Source: a virus. Taken from it: 64,000 nt of DNA. The notes beneath the pieces are model-generated. The model made no database searches. It was given only the letters and a program-made list of their open reading frames with translations, and was not told where the DNA came from. Position numbers and translations under genes: made by a program. This document shows, piece by piece, positions 5,809-62,660 of this stretch. Location of the stretch: IMG/VR virus record IMGVR_UViG_3300021963_000025, positions 64,001-128,000 of that record; one strand, written 5' to 3'. How positions within the stretch are numbered: position 1 is the first letter of the stretch; each line of letters opens with the position of its first letter.

Positions 5809-5835
5809 CCCTACATACAACATAGTAAAACCCAC

Positions 5836-5883
5836 ATTGGGTCTTTTTAGTTTGATATATAATATAGACTAAAAAGACCCAAT
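5836..5883 (+). promoter_or_regulatory. 16-bp perfect inverted repeat enclosing a late-type promoter
   Basis: Left arm ATTGGGTCTTTTTAGT (5836-5851) and right arm ACTAAAAAGACCCAAT (5868-5883) are perfectly complementary. The 16-base loop holds GATATATAA (5854-5862). The right arm ends nine bases before the ATG at 5892 and no T-run follows, so it is not a normal terminator. A read-through RNA would carry both arms and mask the ribosome site; an RNA started at the internal promoter would lack the left arm. This is the logic known for T4 gene e and other late genes. Confidence 0.7.
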
Positions 5884-5891
5884 TGTTGTAA

Positions 5892-6275
5892 ATGAGCACA
5901 GAGAGAACCCCACAAGAGATGATTCTTGAACTATATGACCTGTTTTCTTCGTTTAAGAGACGAATCGAAGACCCTAATTATATTCAAATAGAGAACACCT
6001 TAGAAAAATTGGTGGAGAATCAAAATGAAATGAAAGAAGAGATTCGAGGATTGAAAAAACAACTCCTGAATCCTTTTGATGGTGTAATTGTGGAGAATAA
6101 AAAGAACACTGAATTTAGAGAGGAACAAGAGGCTTGGAGGGTTGAAAGGGATAAACTAATTGAAGAGCACAAACACTTAATGCGATGGAAAAACGGCGCT
6201 GTTAAGGTTCTAATTGCCCTATTAACCGCAAGTGGTGCAATAGTTACATTCTTTTTAACAAAATACTACCAATAA
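5892..6275 (+). CDS. Coiled-coil protein with C-terminal TM anchor (XhlA-like)
   Basis: 127 residues. Residues about 30-95 are charged and heptad-like (L-E-K-L-V-E-N-Q-N-E-M-K-E-E-I). Residues about 106-123 form one membrane segment, W-K-N-G-A-V-K-V-L-I-A-L-L-T-A-S-G-A. This layout is that of XhlA/haemolysin-type phage membrane proteins, which help holins or tether the lysis machinery, but it is a generic layout. It lies at the head of the fibre cassette and next to an unrecognised gene. A lysis role is possible, not shown. Confidence 0.65.
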   Translation: MSTERTPQEMILELYDLFSSFKRRIEDPNYIQIENTLEKLVENQNEMKEEIRGLKKQLLNPFDGVIVENKKNTEFREEQEAWRVERDKLIEEHKHLMRWKNGAVKVLIALLTASGAIVTFFLTKYYQ

Positions 6276-18549: not shown

Positions 18550-18580
18550 ATTTGATATATAATACTTGAATATATCAAAT
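18550..18580 (+). promoter_or_regulatory. 11-bp inverted repeat enclosing a late-type promoter
   Basis: ATTTGATATAT (18550-18560) pairs with ATATATCAAAT (18570-18580). GATATATAA spans the left arm and loop (18554-18562). The right arm ends three bases before the ATG at 18584. The layout matches the repeat at 5836-5883. Confidence 0.65.
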
Positions 18581-18583
18581 AAC

Positions 18584-19135
18584 ATGTTAAACGAAGCTTA
18601 CACCACTGACAAAATCCTTATTTTCGATATTGATGATACTATCGCAATTACCCCTGCGAAAATAGTAGTCACTGACACAAAAACTGGAAAGACATTCGAA
18701 CTGACTCCAGAAGAGTTTAACTCATACGAGAAAAACAAAAATCATCTTGTTAATTTCGACCAATTCAGATCACTAGAGATTATGAAAGCGGGTCGATTGA
18801 TTGATAAATACTTCAACGTACTCACTAAAAACTACAAGAGTGGCGTTGCAATCGGTGTTATTACAGCACGAGACAATAGAGAAATGATATACGAATGGTT
18901 CCGCTTTCACTTAGGATTCCATATCGATAAAAAACTGATCTGGGCAGTTAATGACCCAGTCCATGGACTTACCGGAAATATACAACAACGAAAACAGGAC
19001 GCAATGCGCTGGTTTATTGACCAGGGTTACACGGATATCACGTTCTTCGACGACGATAGAAACAATATAAAACTAATAAAACAATTAGAGAGTGAACTCG
19101 GTCAATCGATCAAGACACATCTTGCTAAACACTAG
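18584..19135 (+). CDS. HAD-superfamily phosphatase (PNK 3'-phosphatase-like)
   Basis: 183 residues from the ATG at 18584. An in-frame TTG at 18566 lies inside the promoter hairpin and is rejected. Motif I is I-F-D-I-D-D-T-I; motif II is V-I-T-A-R-D-N-R; motif IV is F-F-D-D-D-R-N-N. This is close to the acid-phosphatase/polynucleotide-kinase 3'-phosphatase branch of HAD enzymes, which act on nucleic-acid ends or nucleotides. The N-terminus is MLNEAYTTDK; L-N-E|A near the very start recalls the cleavage pattern of the tagged proteins but without the rest of the tag, so this may be chance. Confidence 0.8.
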   Translation: MLNEAYTTDKILIFDIDDTIAITPAKIVVTDTKTGKTFELTPEEFNSYEKNKNHLVNFDQFRSLEIMKAGRLIDKYFNVLTKNYKSGVAIGVITARDNREMIYEWFRFHLGFHIDKKLIWAVNDPVHGLTGNIQQRKQDAMRWFIDQGYTDITFFDDDRNNIKLIKQLESELGQSIKTHLAKH

Positions 19136-30683: not shown

Positions 30684-30715
30684 TTGGGTTTTCAAATATA
30701 TAAAGAAAAACCCAA
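30684..30715 (+). promoter_or_regulatory. 9-bp inverted repeat enclosing a late-type promoter
   Basis: TTGGGTTTT (30684-30692) pairs with AAAACCCAA (30707-30715), with AAATATATAA in the loop. The right arm ends six bases before the ATG at 30722. Confidence 0.6.
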
Positions 30716-30721
30716 TACAAT

Positions 30722-31069
30722 ATGGAAGTTACATTTTGGCCTATGCTAAGAGACGGAATTATCAAATTCTTCTCTGATATGAAATTCTTTTTTACGAAAG
30801 ATTTTATCAAACAAAACTACTACAAACATTTTTTATATTCTCTAGTCTTAACCATTCCATCGATTTGGTTCATGTATGAATATATGCACCTTAAAGATAC
30901 TGGAATTGGATTTACGGTTTTTATTGCCGGATTCGGGGCAAAAGCGGTAAACTTTGTACGCGAATGGTATTATGGAATTAAATACAAAGCACCATGGAGC
31001 GACGAAGATATTAACTTTGGTACTTATGGTGGAATCATCGGTGGTATTATCGCCGCATTAATATTTTAA
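30722..31069 (+). CDS. Membrane protein, about three TM segments
   Basis: 115 residues. Hydrophobic segments at about 40-55, 62-80 and 98-115; the last is glycine-rich (G-G-I-I-G-G-I-I-A-A-L-I-F), a glycine-zipper pattern for helix packing. The N-terminal 30 residues are aromatic and basic. A holin or envelope protein is possible but not shown. Controlled by a hairpin-promoter module. Confidence 0.65.
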   Translation: MEVTFWPMLRDGIIKFFSDMKFFFTKDFIKQNYYKHFLYSLVLTIPSIWFMYEYMHLKDTGIGFTVFIAGFGAKAVNFVREWYYGIKYKAPWSDEDINFGTYGGIIGGIIAALIF

Positions 31070-31447: not shown

Positions 31448-31474
31448 AAGCTGGCTAAAAGGTCAGCTTTTTTT
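31448..31474 (+). terminator. Rho-independent terminator
   Basis: AAGCTGGC (31448-31455) pairs with GTCAGCTT (31462-31469) with one G-T wobble, then seven T. It separates the membrane genes from the Clp gene. Confidence 0.8.
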
Positions 31475-35918: not shown

Positions 35919-35957
35919 TCATACCACCTATTATTCTTGAGATAAATACAGGTATGA
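35919..35957 (+). promoter_or_regulatory. 7-bp inverted repeat with start codon in the right arm
   Basis: TCATACC (35919-35925) pairs with GGTATGA (35951-35957), which contains the ATG of the next gene (35954). GATAAATAC, close to the T4 late promoter, lies between at 35941-35949. It is a shorter example of the hairpin-promoter layout. Confidence 0.5.
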
Positions 35958-39748: not shown

Positions 39749-39821
39749 TTGTTAATAACTTTTTAAATAAAAGTTTTACCGTGTCAGGAATTTGTATTAT
39801 ATTTACATATCAAATTAAAAC
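39749..39821 (+). promoter_or_regulatory. Promoter, TTG-N-TATATTTACATATC class
   Basis: TTGTTAATAACTTTTT at 39749-39764 is followed by TTGTATTATATTTACATATC at 39792-39811 and AAATTAAAAC. It drives the UVR-like protein at 39831. Confidence 0.75.
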
Positions 39822-39830
39822 CTTATAATC

Positions 39831-40121
39831 ATGGACGAAAACTTTGACCTTTTTGAAGACCAAGAAAACGAAATCGACACTATTAAAAAAGAAGCCGAAA
39901 TGAATAACATAATGTATGATTTGAAAATCAAACTTGCAAATGAGAATTATGATTCGATAATTTCTAAAGGAGTTGATTTTAAATTAATGGAAAGACAAAA
40001 CATCGAGATTGAACCCGTTGTTAAAATTCTCGGAGACATGTTAGAGCTCTTTGAAGAGCTTGAAGAGTACGAAAAGTGCGCAGAAATAAATAAAATACTT
40101 AAGAAAGCGCCGGTCCTATAA
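39831..40121 (+). CDS. Small protein with C-terminal UVR-like motif
   Basis: 96 residues, acidic, ending L-E-E-Y-E-K-C-A-E-I-N-K-I-L-K-K-A. This C-terminus is shared with the proteins at 34395, 41207 and 41556 while the N-termini differ. It resembles the UVR motif of UvrB/UvrC, ClpC and McsA. It has its own strong promoter; its stop lies inside a terminator stem. Possible Clp adaptor, by inference. Confidence 0.68.
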   Translation: MDENFDLFEDQENEIDTIKKEAEMNNIMYDLKIKLANENYDSIISKGVDFKLMERQNIEIEPVVKILGDMLELFEELEEYEKCAEINKILKKAPVL

Positions 40122-41498: not shown

Positions 41499-41559
41499 CC
41501 ATCTATTAATATATACTATATGCAACAATTGTTGCTTTAAAAACATTACGGCAAGATGG
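41499..41559 (+). promoter_or_regulatory. Inverted repeat and palindrome around a start codon
   Basis: CCATCT (41499-41504) pairs with AGATGG (41554-41559), which contains the ATG at 41556. Between them lie AATATATAC and the perfect palindrome GCAACAATTGTTGC (41522-41535). Together they could fold into a long hairpin in a read-through RNA. Confidence 0.45.
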
Positions 41560-42599: not shown

Positions 42600-42635
42600 T
42601 CCATCTATATAATACTTATAAAATATATAGATGGA
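42600..42635 (+). promoter_or_regulatory. 12-bp inverted repeat with internal promoter and start codon in the arm
   Basis: TCCATCTATATA (42600-42611) pairs with TATATAGATGGA (42624-42635); the ATG of the RNase HII gene (42631) lies inside the right arm. CTATATAATAC within the left arm and loop is the late-type element. Read-through RNA would hide the start codon. Confidence 0.65.
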
Positions 42636-43604: not shown

Positions 43605-43632
43605 ATTGTTAATAACTTTTTTAAATTATTTG

Positions 43633-43660
43633 CCCGGCATTTTCATATGTCGGGTTTTTT
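43633..43660 (+). terminator. Rho-independent terminator
   Basis: CCCGGCAT (43633-43640) pairs with ATGTCGGG (43647-43654) with one wobble, followed by six T that run into the next promoter. Confidence 0.85.
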
Positions 43661-43687
43661 GATTATATTTACATATCTAATTAAAAC
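43659..43687 (+). promoter_or_regulatory. Promoter, TTG-N-TATATTTACATATC class
   Basis: TTGATTATATTTACATATC followed by TAATTAAAAC, directly after the terminator tail. It drives the gene at 43697. Confidence 0.75.
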
Positions 43688-46630: not shown

Positions 46631-46669
46631 AAAAAGTCTATATATAATAAACATATATAGACTTTTTTT
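46631..46669 (+). terminator. 15-bp inverted repeat: terminator with internal late-type promoter
   Basis: AAAAAGTCTATATAT (46631-46645) pairs with ATATATAGACTTTTT (46653-46667), with a T-run. TATATATAATA spans arm and loop. It can terminate upstream transcription and, by its internal motif, start a new transcript. An ATG (46670) lies three bases after the right arm. Confidence 0.7.
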
Positions 46670-46720
46670 ATGCCAAAAATAAAACCAAAAATTCTAATTA
46701 AATTAGAATATATAATATGA
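46670..46720 (+). other. Short leftover frame (16 codons) after the hairpin
   Basis: ATG at 46670 encodes M-P-K-I-K-P-K-I-L-I-K-L-E-Y-I-I and stops where the homing endonuclease starts. The dCMP deaminase begins M-P-R-I-D-I-E-K-I-Y. The leftover may be a remnant of the deaminase leader displaced by insertion of the endonuclease, or a chance frame. Confidence 0.3.
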
Positions 46721-49882: not shown

Positions 49883-50462
49883 ACATAAACTTTTTTCAAA
49901 GGGTGAATATATCAATGTTCTAATAACTAATAATAGATATAGCAATATTGTTTTCCCTGTTAAAGCAATTATCCACGATATTGAGTTTAACGATAAAATG
50001 CCGAGATACCAGATCAGAATCGTTAAATTCTATGACGACATAGACTTTCTTAAAAGATACATGTTTGATATGAAATTTGACCGAAATTTCGAGGGTGGAC
50101 ATACAATCTTTAGAATTTCTAGAGCAAATGTACCGAGTGTAAAAGAACTTCAGAACTATATTGATTCAAAATGGGAAACTTTCCTAATGGTTGTAGACTC
50201 GGTAATGTGTGTTAGAACCTATGATGAACTTAATGAGTTACAGAATAACATCCAAGACTTCCTGGTTGAAAAGTCTATTAGAGACCTTTATGAACTTACT
50301 ACTCGATCGACGTATTCAAAGGGTAAGTATTACTATGAAAGTCGAGGAGTATTTGAAGCGCATATTAAAAAATTCTTGGACAAACGAGCCGGAACTCAAA
50401 AAGATTATTTTGATAAATTACTATATAGACCGCTCTCTGTCGACTACGATAATTTAGAATAG
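49875..50462 (+). CDS. Unrecognised protein in the baseplate region
   Basis: 195 residues, basic, mixed alpha/beta: N-terminal barrel-like strands (Y-I-N-V-L-I-T-N-N-R-Y), then helices (S-V-K-E-L-Q-N-Y-I-D-S-K-W). It ends just before the large structural gene at 50506, which is preceded by a late-type motif. Probably an assembly or hub protein; no family recognised. Confidence 0.6.
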   Translation: MIRHKLFSKGEYINVLITNNRYSNIVFPVKAIIHDIEFNDKMPRYQIRIVKFYDDIDFLKRYMFDMKFDRNFEGGHTIFRISRANVPSVKELQNYIDSKWETFLMVVDSVMCVRTYDELNELQNNIQDFLVEKSIRDLYELTTRSTYSKGKYYYESRGVFEAHIKKFLDKRAGTQKDYFDKLLYRPLSVDYDNLE

Positions 50463-50505
50463 CCTGTTTCTGTGATATATACTTAAACAAATATATTTAA
50501 TAGGA

Positions 50506-52350
50506 ATGGCTGAAGAAAAGGGCTTTTTTGATAAAGTAAAAGAAAAGGCTGGATCGGCGTTTAAAACTACTAAAGATTCTTCAATAGGAAAAGGGTTTAT
50601 TAGCGCTGTTAAAAATGTATCTGGATTAGACCTTGAAAATTTAGATGGTTCTAATCCTGATGGTGTACATTCTGGCTCAAAAGGTAAAGGAAAACCTGTT
50701 GCAAAAAGTAAACAAAGTACAGATTTAACTCAATTAAGAGCAGCCTCGCAAGATGCTCCTTTTGGTATACTTAATTCAAAAACAGGTTCTAAATATTATA
50801 GTGACATTGTTGATTCTGAAGTATACAAATCAACTCAACCAGGAACTGAAGGTAAAAAGATAACAGTTGGTCCAAGACCATATTCTGCTTTTAATAAATA
50901 TTCTCTAATTAATTATAGAGGAAATCCGTTAGATTCTACTAAAGATGGATTTATATCTAACTCTGGTGGAACTACCGTTTATCAAAAAATAAATATCAAT
51001 GACCTTCAAAATCCAACAGTAACTCAGATCATTGAAAGAACCTCAGCACTTACTGATAATTACGCATATAGATACCAATACTCAGATTTTGCATTGGCTA
51101 AATACTATGGAAAATTACCGAACAATATGCTTATTACTCTTCGTAGATTTGCGTATCCTGCCGCTGATGACATCGTAACACCACAAGCACTTTCTGCCGA
51201 TGGGAAGACCATGGAAAAAATCCAGCAACCAGATATTGCGCGTGCAGTAACTTGGCTTGGTGAGGCTCCTGGTAATAACATGGCAGACATCCTAAAATTT
51301 TCAAATGGTTTCAATTGGAAAGATGCTGAAGCTGCAGTACAGACATTAAATTCTAAACAAGGAGCTTCATCCGGAAAATTTGGTAGTATTGTTGAAGGAA
51401 ACAAAGTGCTTTCTGCAATGGCAAATGCCGGAGCTGGTAGAGATGCGGTTGCTGCAAATGCTAATAAACAAAATGCAGACTACGATTCATTCACTAACAC
51501 ATATCCAAATCACACATTCGGTCCATTAAATGTTATTAAAAATGTTCTTGTTAGAGAGCAAGGTCTTAAATTCGAACAGGAATTTAAACTTAAGTTTGAA
51601 TATGAATTAAGAGCTTTTGAAGGAGCCAATCCTAAAATTATGATGCTCGATCAACTTGCAAATATTTTAGCATTAACATATAACAATGCTCCTTTCTGGG
51701 GAGGTTCTGTTAGATATATTGGAGATGGGGCAGTTGCAAAACCTCTAGGTAATTTAAGTAAACTTCGAGAAGGAGATTATCTTGGATTTGCTGGAAGTAT
51801 TGTAGATGATATGGGTAAAATGTTTAAAGGAGCTGGAGCTGGATTTAGTGGAGCAGCTGGTGCATTAATGAATGGTGATGTGGGAGGAGCATTAGGAGCC
51901 CTTAAAGATAATAAGTTCCTAAATAATCTTATTGGAGGAGCCGCGATGGATATGTTTAATACGCCTCAAGGTGGACAAGCGGTCGCTTCATTACTTACAG
52001 GAGATCCGACAGGACAATGGCATGTAACAATCGGAAATCCTCTTAATCCAATAATGGTAGTTGGTAATTTATGTATGCAAGATTGTAATATTACATTTGA
52101 AGGTGGAATGGGAATTCAAGATTTTCCAGAACATATGACTGTAGAAATTACATTAAAACCAGGTCGACCAAGAGATAAAGCAGAAATTGAATCAATGTTC
52201 AACTCAGGAAGAGGAAGATTTTATGTTCAACCCGATGATGTTGCAGATATTAACAAAACAGTTGATGTTAGTGCTTACGGTAATAAAGACCGAAAAGGCG
52301 GTGGTAAAGACGTCTTTGTAAACAATTTCAGAAAATTAAGTAACGGATAA
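50506..52350 (+). CDS. Large virion structural protein (baseplate/tail region)
   Basis: 614 residues. The first 90 residues are Gly/Lys/Ser-rich and flexible. The middle has beta-rich stretches (R-P-Y-S-A-F-N-K-Y-S-L-I-N-Y-R-G-N-P) and helical, Ala/Gly-rich segments (about 430-490). The C-terminus holds W-H-V-T-I-G-N-P-L-N-P-I and M-T-V-E-I-T-L-K-P-G-R-P-R-D. I believe similar large proteins occur near the baseplate genes of T4-like phages of marine bacteria, but cannot name a T4 counterpart. A late-type motif (GATATATAC, about 50474) precedes it; it abuts the gp53-like gene. Confidence 0.65.
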   Translation: MAEEKGFFDKVKEKAGSAFKTTKDSSIGKGFISAVKNVSGLDLENLDGSNPDGVHSGSKGKGKPVAKSKQSTDLTQLRAASQDAPFGILNSKTGSKYYSDIVDSEVYKSTQPGTEGKKITVGPRPYSAFNKYSLINYRGNPLDSTKDGFISNSGGTTVYQKININDLQNPTVTQIIERTSALTDNYAYRYQYSDFALAKYYGKLPNNMLITLRRFAYPAADDIVTPQALSADGKTMEKIQQPDIARAVTWLGEAPGNNMADILKFSNGFNWKDAEAAVQTLNSKQGASSGKFGSIVEGNKVLSAMANAGAGRDAVAANANKQNADYDSFTNTYPNHTFGPLNVIKNVLVREQGLKFEQEFKLKFEYELRAFEGANPKIMMLDQLANILALTYNNAPFWGGSVRYIGDGAVAKPLGNLSKLREGDYLGFAGSIVDDMGKMFKGAGAGFSGAAGALMNGDVGGALGALKDNKFLNNLIGGAAMDMFNTPQGGQAVASLLTGDPTGQWHVTIGNPLNPIMVVGNLCMQDCNITFEGGMGIQDFPEHMTVEITLKPGRPRDKAEIESMFNSGRGRFYVQPDDVADINKTVDVSAYGNKDRKGGGKDVFVNNFRKLSNG

Positions 52351-52843: not shown

Positions 52844-54964
52844 ATGGCATCAATCAATAATCATATTCTTACAATAACAGAACCGACTATTAAGTTAGAT
52901 GAGGTTGTTTTTGAATCGTTTGGCGAAGGTGAAGGAGATGCAACTAAAGCAAATACCAGCAAGGGCTATCTATTAATGGTTTCCATCAATGGGTATGTTT
53001 TTAGTGATAAAGATGTTTTAAAAATGACATTGGATTGTAATGGTCCTCTTCCGACAATAGACCTTACTCTTTCCGATAATCAAGGACTATTTACAATTGA
53101 TACCTTTCCTAGAGATGGAGATGTTATTAATTTTAGAATGGGTACGCTAGACAAGAACTCATATAAAGATATTCGAATTGATTTCGATATTACAACAGCT
53201 GACCAACCTAAACAAAACTCAAATGTTAAAGGAGGAAAGTATAACTTTTCGGGTAGAATAAAAGTTCCAGGTTTATACGCAGATGAATGTAAATCTTATG
53301 GGACTGGTACTTCATTAGACCATATTGAATCAATTGCAAATGATTTAAAACTTGGAGTTGCAACCAATATTGATTCTGCTGATGATAAGATGAATCTGAT
53401 CCTACCTTATAATAGTAGATTTGATACATTGGAAGATTTGGTAAGACACTCGTACATTGATGAGGATAGTTTCCAAGTATATTGTATTGACCAATTCTAT
53501 TATGTTAACTATGTTAATTTGAACACACTATTAGAATCAGAAGAATCTATTGAGGAAGTTATTGCTGCTTATGAGCAAGAACTTAATGATATGCCTGGAA
53601 ATGGATCAGACGATTCAGCGAATCAAACCAAAAAACCACTTATATTAACTAACCATAAGAGGGATGCAGGTACAAACCTATTTATTGAAGCACAGTCTCT
53701 AGCAAATAGCGCTGGAAATAAAACCAAAAAGAATGGTTATAAAAGAACCCTTCAATTTTTTGAAAATGATTCTGATGAGGGACTGGTAAGTCATGACATT
53801 GAACCACTTGCAAGTAAAAAAATGTCAGATATCGAAGAACCTATGAAGGGTCGAAGAGATGAAGACCGATATAAAGGTGAAACTAAAACAAAGTATACTG
53901 GTAGAAAAAACTCAGATCCAGAAACTTCACATACTCATCTAAATTATGAATATGCTGCGATAAGTAATGCACAAAACTTAGACGAGGTTAAAAAAATGTC
54001 GTTAGAAGTTTCATTGGCATCTTTTAATCCCGCAATCCACTTGTACCAAAAATTACCGGTTGCAATTTATACAAATCAACAAGATAAATTAGGTGCGGAT
54101 AAAGTAATTAAAGATGCTAAAAAAGAAAAGGGATTCGAAACTACAGTAGAAGAGGATTCATCAACTGTTGAACCTGGTAAATTTGTACTTGATGAATTTT
54201 TATCAGCGTATTATGTAGTTGGAGGTATTGAATATACCTTCAAAGCAGGGGATTCTTCTGTTAAACAAAAATTAAAATTGTTACGAAGAGAATGGCCAAG
54301 TAGAATTAATAACATTAATCCAGAGACTGTTGCGGCTCAACCAACACCTGCAACTGCTCCTCCTACTCCGCCACCTACTCCGGAACCAGTTGAACCACCA
54401 CCGCCGCCAGAACCACCAGCAAAACCAGAGTATACTGTTAGCGGTAAAATAGAAAGTAAAATCAAAAATTGGACGGCAAGCGTGGTACAAGGAGAATGGA
54501 AAGTTACACCAGAAGGTTCTCCAGCGCCTACTAAAATCAATATTGAATTTAAAGACACAAAAACTAGTGCATACAATCTACAACCTGCTCAAGTTGCGGC
54601 AGACGGTAAATGGACTCTAAATATTGCGAAAGAACAAATACCAGTTGGAAGATATAGTGTAACTGCTAAATTAGAAGGCCCTGGAGGAGAAACAGCAGAA
54701 GGTACTTTAGGAAATACTTCAGTTGTTAAATGGACACCAGATAGTGTTATAAGCGGACCTGATGTTATTAGACTTGGAAATGTATTCTTTAGAAATGAAG
54801 TTAAAAATGGAAAAGAGCCAGACACATTCGTTGGAACGTACACTAAGAAAGGTGAAGCAACCGATAATGGAAATACTTCTCCAATGTCTGGAAAAGTAGA
54901 AGGAACTAGTTCACAACAAGTAATTTCAGACACCCAAGCCGCTATGAGGTCAGAAATGTCGTAA
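52844..54964 (+). CDS. gp27-like baseplate hub protein with Pro-rich linker and Ig-like domain
   Basis: 706 residues. Residues about 45-240 have the pattern of tail hub domains (V-S-I-N-G-Y-V-F ... L-T-L-S-D-N-Q-G-L-F-T ... F-P-R-D-G-D-V-I-N-F), followed by a second hub-like part (I-A-N-D-L-K-L-G-V ... D-S-F-Q-V-Y-C-I-D-Q-F-Y-Y-V-N-Y). A Pro-rich linker (about 501-528) leads to an Ig-like domain (Y-T-V-S-G-K-I ... D-G-K-W-T-L-N-I). It would form the trimeric hub that carries the spike. The Ig-like tail is unusual for gp27. Confidence 0.65.
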   Translation: MASINNHILTITEPTIKLDEVVFESFGEGEGDATKANTSKGYLLMVSINGYVFSDKDVLKMTLDCNGPLPTIDLTLSDNQGLFTIDTFPRDGDVINFRMGTLDKNSYKDIRIDFDITTADQPKQNSNVKGGKYNFSGRIKVPGLYADECKSYGTGTSLDHIESIANDLKLGVATNIDSADDKMNLILPYNSRFDTLEDLVRHSYIDEDSFQVYCIDQFYYVNYVNLNTLLESEESIEEVIAAYEQELNDMPGNGSDDSANQTKKPLILTNHKRDAGTNLFIEAQSLANSAGNKTKKNGYKRTLQFFENDSDEGLVSHDIEPLASKKMSDIEEPMKGRRDEDRYKGETKTKYTGRKNSDPETSHTHLNYEYAAISNAQNLDEVKKMSLEVSLASFNPAIHLYQKLPVAIYTNQQDKLGADKVIKDAKKEKGFETTVEEDSSTVEPGKFVLDEFLSAYYVVGGIEYTFKAGDSSVKQKLKLLRREWPSRINNINPETVAAQPTPATAPPTPPPTPEPVEPPPPPEPPAKPEYTVSGKIESKIKNWTASVVQGEWKVTPEGSPAPTKINIEFKDTKTSAYNLQPAQVAADGKWTLNIAKEQIPVGRYSVTAKLEGPGGETAEGTLGNTSVVKWTPDSVISGPDVIRLGNVFFRNEVKNGKEPDTFVGTYTKKGEATDNGNTSPMSGKVEGTSSQQVISDTQAAMRSEMS

Positions 54965-60444: not shown

Positions 60445-60473
60445 AACCCAGATTTTCGGATCTGGGTTTTTTT
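60445..60473 (+). terminator. Rho-independent terminator
   Basis: AACCCAGAT (60445-60453) pairs with ATCTGGGTT (60460-60468), followed by T residues that merge with the next promoter. Confidence 0.9.
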
Positions 60474-60499
60474 GTTTATATTTACATTATAATTAAAAC
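60472..60499 (+). promoter_or_regulatory. Promoter, TTG-N-TATATTTACA class
   Basis: TTGTTTATATTTACATTATAATTAAAAC in two pieces (TTGTTTATATTTACAT, then TATAATTAAAAC) follows the terminator, exactly as at 1739. A late-type GATATATAA overlaps its end at about 60501. It drives the tagged gene at 60513. Confidence 0.7.
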
Positions 60500-60512
60500 A
60501 GATATATAAAGC

Positions 60513-61316
60513 ATGAACAAATTTAAAACCTTCGGACAATTCATAAACGAATCTAAACAAGACAATATTGTTAATGTTATTTTAAATTCATTGGAGCATA
60601 CAATCATTGAGATGTTAGCTGCAACTGAAAAATGGTTTGTTGAGACCTTTAAACAGGAATTCACCAAATATGACAGAGAGATGGCTAGAATCAATTTAAC
60701 CTACGATATGGTTAAATCTATTGAAATGTATACATTGCCAACCGATTCACTGTTATCAATGAACGTACGTAAGAGCGTTAAAGGAAATATTCAAATTGAT
60801 GCTCAAATCCAAAGAGGAGAAGAGACTTATAGTTTTTCTACCGAGGCTATTTATGCAGGAGGACACAATATCCAAAGACTTCACTATAGATATATTGTTA
60901 AGACAAACATTCTAAAAACTGGTGCTAGTGAAATTGCTAAAGAATACGCTGAGAAGATTAAGAAAATGTCTAAGCTTGAAAAACTTAATAAAGAAATCGA
61001 AAGTTACGAGATTAGAATTAAAAGAACCGAAGAAAAAATTGAAGTAAATTCAAAATTGAATGATGATGAAATACTAAATGTTTTAAAGTCTGGTAAAGAT
61101 TGGTATGAATGGCCAACATGGTCTGAAATCGTAGATAGAGGTGCTGCTAAAAATTATGATAATGATGAAAATATATTCAATCAAAAACAAAAAGAGCATT
61201 TAGATTTCAAGATAAAATTCTGGAAGGATATGAATGTTGATTCACAAAGAAAACACCTTGCTGATTATCAAAAAACTGTTAAAAAATTACAAGTAAAACG
61301 AGATTCTATGGTATAG
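60513..61316 (+). CDS. Tagged putative internal head protein (long)
   Basis: 267 residues, the longest tagged protein here, starting M-N-K-F-K-T-F-G-Q-F-I-N-E|S. The body begins with a helical, partly hydrophobic segment (V-I-L-N-S-L-E-H-T-I-I-E-M-L), then a beta-rich part, then a long coiled coil (about 155-185, K-L-E-K-L-N-K-E-I-E-S-Y-E-I) and a helical end. It has both a promoter of the early class and a late-type motif. No family recognised. Confidence 0.68.
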   Translation: MNKFKTFGQFINESKQDNIVNVILNSLEHTIIEMLAATEKWFVETFKQEFTKYDREMARINLTYDMVKSIEMYTLPTDSLLSMNVRKSVKGNIQIDAQIQRGEETYSFSTEAIYAGGHNIQRLHYRYIVKTNILKTGASEIAKEYAEKIKKMSKLEKLNKEIESYEIRIKRTEEKIEVNSKLNDDEILNVLKSGKDWYEWPTWSEIVDRGAAKNYDNDENIFNQKQKEHLDFKIKFWKDMNVDSQRKHLADYQKTVKKLQVKRDSMV

Positions 61317-61325
61317 TTATTTTAC

Positions 61326-61362
61326 TTGGATATATACTTTAACCTAAGTTTAATATATCCAA
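61326..61362 (+). promoter_or_regulatory. 10-bp inverted repeat enclosing a late-type promoter
   Basis: TTGGATATAT (61326-61335) pairs with ATATATCCAA (61353-61362), with GATATATAC across arm and loop. The right arm ends five bases before the ATG at 61368. Confidence 0.62.
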
Positions 61363-61367
61363 ATTGA

Positions 61368-62660
61368 ATGAACAATCTAAATGAATCTAATATTTTGCAA
61401 AATGCTCTGATAGGCGTTGAATTTGAATTTTATTCAAATTTTAGTGCTGAAGAAACTGCAAAAAAACTTGAAAAATTACTTGGCAAAAAGATTCATGTCG
61501 AGGACAAAGCACATAGTGATTTTGAAGTAACTCGCGACGAATTTAAAATAGAACCTGACATGTCAGGTGGTGCCAAACTTCTTGAATTGGTTACTGGAGC
61601 CCTTCCATATACTGCGGCTCGTTTAATGATAATTAATGTTTGTCAATGGATTCAAGAGAATGGATATACAAATGACAGGTCTTCGATTCACTTAAACCTT
61701 TCGTTTGATAAATCAAAAATTGAAAACAAATATCGTATCTCTAAAATGAACGTTCTTAAATTCATTTTAGATTTTAATGAAGAGCAAGTCTTCAAATTCT
61801 TTCCTAAAAGAGAAAACTCAGCCTACGCAAAATCTATCAAATTTGTCCTACCAAAAGAGGACACTTACTTCTTTGATGGAAAACATATCAATCAACAGAA
61901 TTTTATTTACCCAGATACAAAATATTACGGGATAAATTTCGATAAAAGACACAAAAACTATCTTGAATTCCGATACATTGGTGGAGCAGACTGGGAAAAG
62001 AAAACAACTACAATTCTTTATTTAGTTGACCGTTTCCTACTACAATTATGGAAATCAACCGAAAATACAAACTTCACGGAATTAAATGCAATTGAATTAA
62101 AAAAGATAGTTGCAGAAAATCAAAGAATAATCGACGCTAGAAAGGACTGGAAGACAATTAAAGATAATTGGAAAAATGTCAAGTTCACTGTCGATATGAA
62201 TGATGACCCTAAAGTAGTTGACCTTTACTGGAATGCTGTTAAAGAAAGAGTGATAAGACTATTTACACATGGAGACCTTAGCAAAGGACATATTAATTAC
62301 GATTCTGATGCGGGTAGGGTTCAAGTAAATGGTGGTCGTTTAGAATATTGTGTTGACCTTAGAGGATATGAATTTGTAAGTTGCTTCCTAAGAGGAGAAT
62401 TTACAGAATGTGATATTTATGGATGTGACATTAATGGTTCTGATATTCACTATTGTAATTTCTATCAATCAACGCAAATTACAAGTTCCAAAGTAGATGG
62501 TTCATATATTCACGGTACATGTACCGCAAATGATTGTTACATTTATGGTAAAGGAACGTTTAAAGGAACAATGAATGGCGGAATCTTTAGAGAGGGTTCA
62601 TTTGATAAAAAACTAGCTAGATTTAATGACGTTGAAATTGTTAAATCTAGAGGAATATAA
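61368..62660 (+). CDS. Amidoligase-like protein with pentapeptide-like tail
   Basis: 430 residues. I-G-V-E-F-E-F-Y (15-22), I-E-P-D-M-S-G-G ... L-E-L-V-T-G (61-77) and S-I-H-L-N-L-S-F (106-113) follow the motif order of the putative amidoligase family (VEFEF ... ExDxS ... ElvsP ... HvnvS), ATP-dependent enzymes thought to form amide bonds. The C-terminal 100 residues have C-D-I-Y-G-C-D-I-N-G-S-D-I-H-Y-C-N-F-type pentapeptide-like repeats. The start reads MNNLNESNIL; L-N-E|S recalls the cleavage pattern but lacks the full tag. Preceded by a hairpin-promoter module. Confidence 0.7.
   Translation: MNNLNESNILQNALIGVEFEFYSNFSAEETAKKLEKLLGKKIHVEDKAHSDFEVTRDEFKIEPDMSGGAKLLELVTGALPYTAARLMIINVCQWIQENGYTNDRSSIHLNLSFDKSKIENKYRISKMNVLKFILDFNEEQVFKFFPKRENSAYAKSIKFVLPKEDTYFFDGKHINQQNFIYPDTKYYGINFDKRHKNYLEFRYIGGADWEKKTTTILYLVDRFLLQLWKSTENTNFTELNAIELKKIVAENQRIIDARKDWKTIKDNWKNVKFTVDMNDDPKVVDLYWNAVKERVIRLFTHGDLSKGHINYDSDAGRVQVNGGRLEYCVDLRGYEFVSCFLRGEFTECDIYGCDINGSDIHYCNFYQSTQITSSKVDGSYIHGTCTANDCYIYGKGTFKGTMNGGIFREGSFDKKLARFNDVEIVKSRGI

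Follow-up and report, generated by a model that had tools for sequence, protein, structure and literature searches.

Several genes of a phage genome are preceded by a perfect inverted repeat that encloses or overlaps a promoter-like motif, which raises the question of whether these repeats act as RNA hairpins that keep the start codon masked until transcription begins inside them. The window analysed here is 64,000 nucleotides long and covers bases 64,001-128,000 of the 199,669-bp phage record. Genes were called computationally with a simple coding-score method. Six main inverted repeats had been listed in a first-pass annotation, and all six were found to be exact, with arms of 16, 15, 12, 11, 10 and 9 bp. 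With a probability of roughly 0.8, the modules are RNA hairpins that mask the start site and carry their own late promoter, like those of T4 gene e and I-TevI, and are used at about one quarter to one third of the late-promoter genes.

Inverted repeats and the late-promoter motif

Long inverted repeats occurred far beyond chance. In the whole genome, 18 intergenic perfect repeats with arms of at least 10 bp were counted, compared to 2.6 (maximum 8) expected from dinucleotide shuffles, 6 with arms of at least 12 bp (0.17 expected) and 2 with arms of at least 15 bp (0 in the shuffles); these totals are mixed in that they include ordinary terminators and terminator-like hairpins at host-type promoters.

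The motif GATATATA was found 29 times on the + (gene) strand and 0 times on the - strand, a strand bias that fits a late promoter. Intergenic DNA holds 23 of the 29 copies, and most copies lie 12-41 nt upstream of a start codon. Distances from the G of the motif to the AUG are bimodal and fall into two groups, one sharp, at exactly 12 nt, and one broad, beginning at about 26 nt. The sharp class has five members in the phage genome and nine in relatives, several of the latter orthologous, and none was found at 8-11 or 13-14 nt. Genes with an AUG exactly 12 nt past the G of GATATATA form a late-gene class that is present genome-wide, for example at 60501-60515 of the window. The simplest reading of this class suggests leaderless late mRNAs, and the RNA would then start about 12 nt past the G.

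This predicted start, which is close to the T4 geometry, falls between the arms or at the right-arm edge in every main module, and the motif itself lies in the loop or overlaps the left arm in all of them. A motif had been reported at every repeat. It was present, but in variant form at 42600 (TCTATATAA), 46631 (TATATATAA) and 30684 (AAATATATAA). The repeats had also been said to end at or in the next start codon. This is the case at 42600, where the AUG is inside the arm, but at 5836 and 61326 the AUG lies 8 nt and 5 nt past the right arm, respectively.

The hairpin modules

All modules and weaker cases in the window are on the + strand. At 5836..5894 a 16-bp perfect repeat (arms 5836-5851 and 5868-5883) holds GATATATAA at 5854-5862 in its loop. 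The RNA is predicted to start at about 5866, and AUG 5892 opens a 127-aa gene without assigned function. The duplex, at -21.5 kcal/mol, was the best among all cross-gene pairings. In the module at 18550..18586, an 11-bp repeat, the left arm (18550-18560) overlaps GATATATAA at 18554-18562 and the right arm is at 18570-18580; the predicted RNA start is about 18566, and AUG 18584 belongs to a polynucleotide-kinase/phosphatase-like gene (PHROG 415). The 9-bp repeat at 30684..30724 (arms 30684-30692 and 30707-30715) encloses the variant motif AATATATAA at 30695-30703, with a predicted RNA start at about 30707 and AUG 30722 of a 115-aa gene without assigned function.

RNase HII (PF01351, E=4e-35) is preceded by a 12-bp repeat at 42600..42635. 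Its left arm (42600-42611) overlaps TCTATATAA at 42604-42612, the RNA is predicted to start at about 42616, and the right arm (42624-42635) contains the AUG at 42631. At 46631..46719 the arms of a 15-bp repeat (46631-46645 and 46653-46667, the latter followed by a T run) are found with TATATATAA at 46639-46647 and a predicted RNA start at about 46651. The first AUG past this repeat, 46670, is not the start of the GIY-YIG/NUMOD3 homing endonuclease (PHROG 314) but opens a 16-codon leader ORF, whose stop overlaps the endonuclease AUG at 46717 (ATGA). This arrangement (46670-46720) suggests translational coupling of the two reading frames.

The amidoligase-like gene (PF12224, E=2e-6; AUG 61368) has a 10-bp repeat at 61326..61370. 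The left arm (61326-61335) overlaps GATATATAC at 61329-61337, the right arm is at 61353-61362 and the predicted RNA start is about 61341. Where the late amidoligase RNA is predicted to begin (61341-61350 of the window), a short palindrome, ACTTAAGT or AACTTAAGTT, is present in most relatives, even in relatives without the longer hairpin; the window has CCTAAGTT there.

One module of the window had been missed by the first-pass annotation. It is at 50458..50512, where an interrupted stem is formed around GATATATAC (50474-50482). Its left part is at about 50458-50482, and its right part, at about 50488-50512, includes AUG 50506 of a 614-aa protein; the duplex of -16.6 kcal/mol was again the best among all cross-gene pairings. 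Further cases are outside the window, at genome 139252, 9218, 13975 and 172152. The one at genome 9218 belongs to a second GIY-YIG homing endonuclease (L006:9197-9874, genome 9197-9874), whose AUG is in the right arm of TTTTCCATA/TATGGAAAA. GATATATAG is in the loop, and the late RNA is predicted to be leaderless.

Of two shorter cases proposed earlier, one is weak and the other different. At 35919..35957 the stem is weak with only 7 bp (TCATACC 35919-35925, GGTATGA 35951-35957), with the motif GATAAATAC and AUG 35954 within the right arm. At 41499..41559 the only pairing that spans the promoter motif AATATATA (41508-41515) is CCATCT 41499-41504 with AGATGG 41554-41559, which was found in only some relatives. 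The stronger structure in this region is a separate hairpin, GCAACAATTGTTGC at 41522-41535. The predicted late RNA of an 85-aa gene begins with this small hairpin (region 41508-41556), which is distinct from the masking hairpins. Most relatives retain the hairpin with a sequence that differs throughout (for example GCAACAATTGTTGC, GCGACTATAGTCGC, GTGGCTATAGCCAC), and it is perhaps an mRNA stabiliser.

Computed occlusion of the start sites

The cost of opening the start region was computed for read-through and late RNA of 36 late leaders, two of which were added by hand as they had been named in the first-pass annotation. The cost dropped from 17.9 to 1.5 kcal/mol for RNase HII, from 13.1 to 2.0 kcal/mol for the amidoligase, from 12.1 to 1.5 kcal/mol for AUG 46670 and from 6.6 to 2.3 kcal/mol for AUG 5892. 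It was nearly unchanged in about 20 other late genes. As modelled, the AUG and A-rich leader would be sequestered in read-through RNA and largely freed in late RNA. A loss of at least 6 kcal/mol of occlusion in the late RNA was seen in 10 of the 36 leaders, compared to 2.4 (maximum 4) in full shuffles. When only the upstream part was shuffled and the motif was kept, 5.5 of 36 leaders (maximum 9) reached 6 kcal/mol, so weaker single cases are not trustworthy on energy alone and may be due to chance.

The same script was run on T4. It was positive for e, I-TevII, 26 and 51, and soc was missed; the script is a reasonable, incomplete detector. By this measure 5 of 25 TATAAATA sites (4 genes) were positive in T4, compared to 10 of 36 leaders in this phage. 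The hairpin device is not far more widespread in this phage than in T4. Its description as a general device was too strong, with about 10-12 of about 36 late leaders involved and the 59202 leader lacking the hairpin signal.

Conservation and co-evolution of the arms

A swap test was performed in which the part unique to read-through RNA (upstream of the predicted start) and the part common to both RNAs (leader and first codons) were paired, and own pairings were compared with permuted ones. Across the genes of the phage genome, own pairings had a mean of -7.6 kcal/mol and permuted pairings -6.1 kcal/mol (1 of 5,000 permutations). Within gene families, own arms paired better than swapped arms for RNase HII (19 of 20,000 permutations), for the 614-aa gene at 50506 (0 of 20,000; 16 leaders) and for the amidoligase (0 of 20,000; 18 distinct leaders). 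For genome 139252 the result was 55 of 20,000 when the upstream stretch was 50 nt long and 16 of 20,000 at 65 nt; the stretch was widened after looking, a first test with 37 nt having cut off the left arm and been negative (1,907 of 20,000). The fold is conserved among relatives in these four gene families, with changing arm sequences. No self-preference was found for the 59202 leader, which has the promoter (15,241 of 20,000). The hairpin at genome 148187 was not conserved, and its swap test was negative.

The RNase HII arms are TCCATCTATATA/TATATAGATGGA in the window, GACATGTGTATA/TATACACATGTC in relative L048 and TTTGGATATAA/TTATGTCCAAA in L045, with the AUG in the right arm each time. They co-vary in L042, L045 and L048. 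The stem and motif at 5836 were present in 8 of 8 relatives, with two mismatches in one of them (L141). The 18550 module is kept in L143-L146, whereas L147-L149 and L153 have a host-type promoter without a hairpin in its place. The 30684 module is identical in one close relative only (L174) and absent from more distant relatives. Where the late promoter is lost or swapped in relatives, the hairpin is gone too, as expected of one device. No orthologous leader was found for 46631 among relatives of its homing endonuclease.

The collections searched for relatives were biased towards marine metagenomes. Among named cultured relatives, Tenacibaculum PTm1 and pT24, phage PAU, Chryseobacterium MA9V-1 and Flavobacterium MaF61 have a 50506 homologue with no clear module before it, and of these five only MaF61 has the motif there. 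LR756500 and Lak-B3 likewise showed no clear module before the 50506 homologue.

Alternative explanations

The repeats could be due to chance, since the motif holds the self-complementary ATATAT and AT-rich leaders would pair with it without any function. Several of the shorter cases are indeed in the range of the upstream-only shuffles, but repeats of 15-16 bp were never obtained by shuffling, and the arms co-evolve in four gene families where those of a control leader with the same promoter do not. Chance is therefore an improbable account of the modules. Slightly less probable still are intrinsic terminators or attenuators, which would end upstream transcripts just before the late promoter. 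The T run after 46631-46667 and a small terminator-like hairpin, ACCCACATTGGGT-CTTTTT at 5830-5842, would fit such a role. Real terminators in the phage genome have a G+C-rich stem and a T run, a combination that the modules lack; only the 46631 repeat is followed by a T run, and the remaining stems, rich in A and T, lie over or next to the AUG. The small hairpin at 5830 is not kept in L138-L140, where the large stem is kept.

DNA operators, promoter dyads to which a repressor protein of late transcription would bind, are the least probable of the three. The dyads do sit on promoters, and T4 I-TevI represses its own late promoter (PMC2988022). Against this, the arm sequences differ between genes and change within a gene family, start codons are in or beside the right arm, and G-U pairs and bulges (L042, L045) keep the RNA stem while breaking the DNA symmetry. 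Chance, terminators and DNA operators were all rejected as a general explanation.

Late sigma factor and host

A T4-gp55-type late sigma factor is encoded by the phage. It is a 123-aa protein (genome 195428-195799) with a PHROG 234 match (E=2e-9); a Sigma70_r2 search gave a sub-threshold lead to its gene, which was confirmed by PHROGs. A direct BLAST of T4 gp55 against this protein matched 20 residues only, and no match was found in the phage genome with the MA9V-1 sigma factor and T4 gp55 as queries.

Start codons in this phage have no Shine-Dalgarno sequence, and the leaders are A-rich with A enriched at -3. Relatives of the 50506-gene protein in named phages are mostly from Bacteroidota phages. 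Taken together, these features make a Bacteroidota bacterium the most likely host. A bS21 gene was sought in the phage genome and none was found, an Rfam search gave no match at the gathering threshold, and 52844-54964 as a DNA query matched none of the annotated phages.

Proposed mechanism and comparison with known systems

For the masking hairpins, the following order of events is proposed. RNA from an upstream promoter would carry both arms, the AUG and A-rich leader would be paired and the gene would hardly be translated. Late in infection, the gp55-type sigma factor would direct RNA polymerase to GATATATAA. The late RNA would start about 12 nt past the G, at a position between the arms or on the edge of the right arm; lacking the left arm, it would be translated. 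We infer where exactly the RNAs start, that early transcription reads through, that read-through RNA is poorly translated, and when these events occur. The hairpins had been said to hide the ribosome site. Masking of the start region is supported by computation, but it is the AUG and A-rich leader that would be masked, as there is no Shine-Dalgarno sequence.

Late promoters inside an inhibitory hairpin are known from T4 e, soc, 49, I-TevI/II/III and segB and from Aeh1 mobE; read-through RNA of such late-promoter genes (e, soc, 49, I-TevI, also segB and mobE) has its start region hidden (PMC3014915, PMC2988022). The modules resemble this group in that the late promoter lies over or after the left arm, the start region is masked in read-through RNA and the late RNA is predicted to lack the left arm. 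Both sets include homing endonuclease genes, and a gp55-type late sigma factor is present. They differ in the promoter, GATATATAA here and TATAAATA in T4, in the masking of an AUG and A-rich leader without a Shine-Dalgarno sequence, and in their targets, here RNase HII, the amidoligase and the 614-aa gene. The likeness is functional, and shared ancestry of individual hairpins is not claimed. The T4-like plan suggested by the first-pass annotation is well supported by the geometry of promoter and left arm, the co-evolving arms in four families, the computed loss of occlusion and the gp55-type sigma factor, but it does not extend to every late gene. Judged from these sequence features, roughly one quarter to one third of the late genes very probably have the T4 plan in conserved form.

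Initiation in Flavobacterium johnsoniae relies on the structure of the mRNA and on nucleotides such as A-3, with no Shine-Dalgarno sequence (PMC6847099); in hosts of this kind an AUG-masking hairpin is therefore plausible. The absent Shine-Dalgarno sequence, the A-rich leader, the A at -3 and the importance of structure near the AUG are common to both cases (PMC6847099). In F. johnsoniae this is a general property of the host, whereas here it would be a promoter-coupled phage switch. No papers on late promoters of Bacteroidota phages were found in the literature collection searched.

There is about an even chance that hairpin-embedded late promoters are a conserved translational timing layer in a large marine clade of Bacteroidota phages, masking the AUG and leader in a host group that does not use Shine-Dalgarno sequences and with a leaderless form at genome 9218, where the late RNA would begin at the AUG and read-through RNA would bury the AUG in the stem. 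The T4 examples have been regarded as a few special genes in Gammaproteobacteria phages. The same logic, with evolutionary evidence for the RNA fold, would here be found in a distant phage group whose hosts initiate without a Shine-Dalgarno sequence. This suggests that hairpins with an embedded promoter came to delay late proteins either convergently or very long ago, and indicates how a Shine-Dalgarno-free start site could be silenced. Late RNA starts and delayed genes of uncultured phages could also be predicted by such a rule from sequence alone.

Sources of read-through RNA

A second promoter class of the Bacteroidota type, TTTACCG..TATATTTACAT, was found. Host-type promoters at 1744, 27621, 39798, 43664, 44011 and 60477, on the same strand, lie upstream of the modules at 5836, 30684, 42600, 46631, 50506 and 61326, and early read-through from them is plausible. 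The 18550 module is the only one without a nearby host-type promoter. Because this module comes after late genes, it is not obvious that early RNA would read through it. Terminator-like hairpins are present at 31448 and at 40109, the latter downstream of the host-type promoter at 39798 and upstream of RNase HII, and read-through is thus not free everywhere. At many host-type promoters the upstream element is in the loop of a terminator-like hairpin and the T run is part of the promoter spacer. Terminator and promoter share bases in this way at 1711-1752, 43632-43672 and 60445-60485 of the window, and also outside the window.
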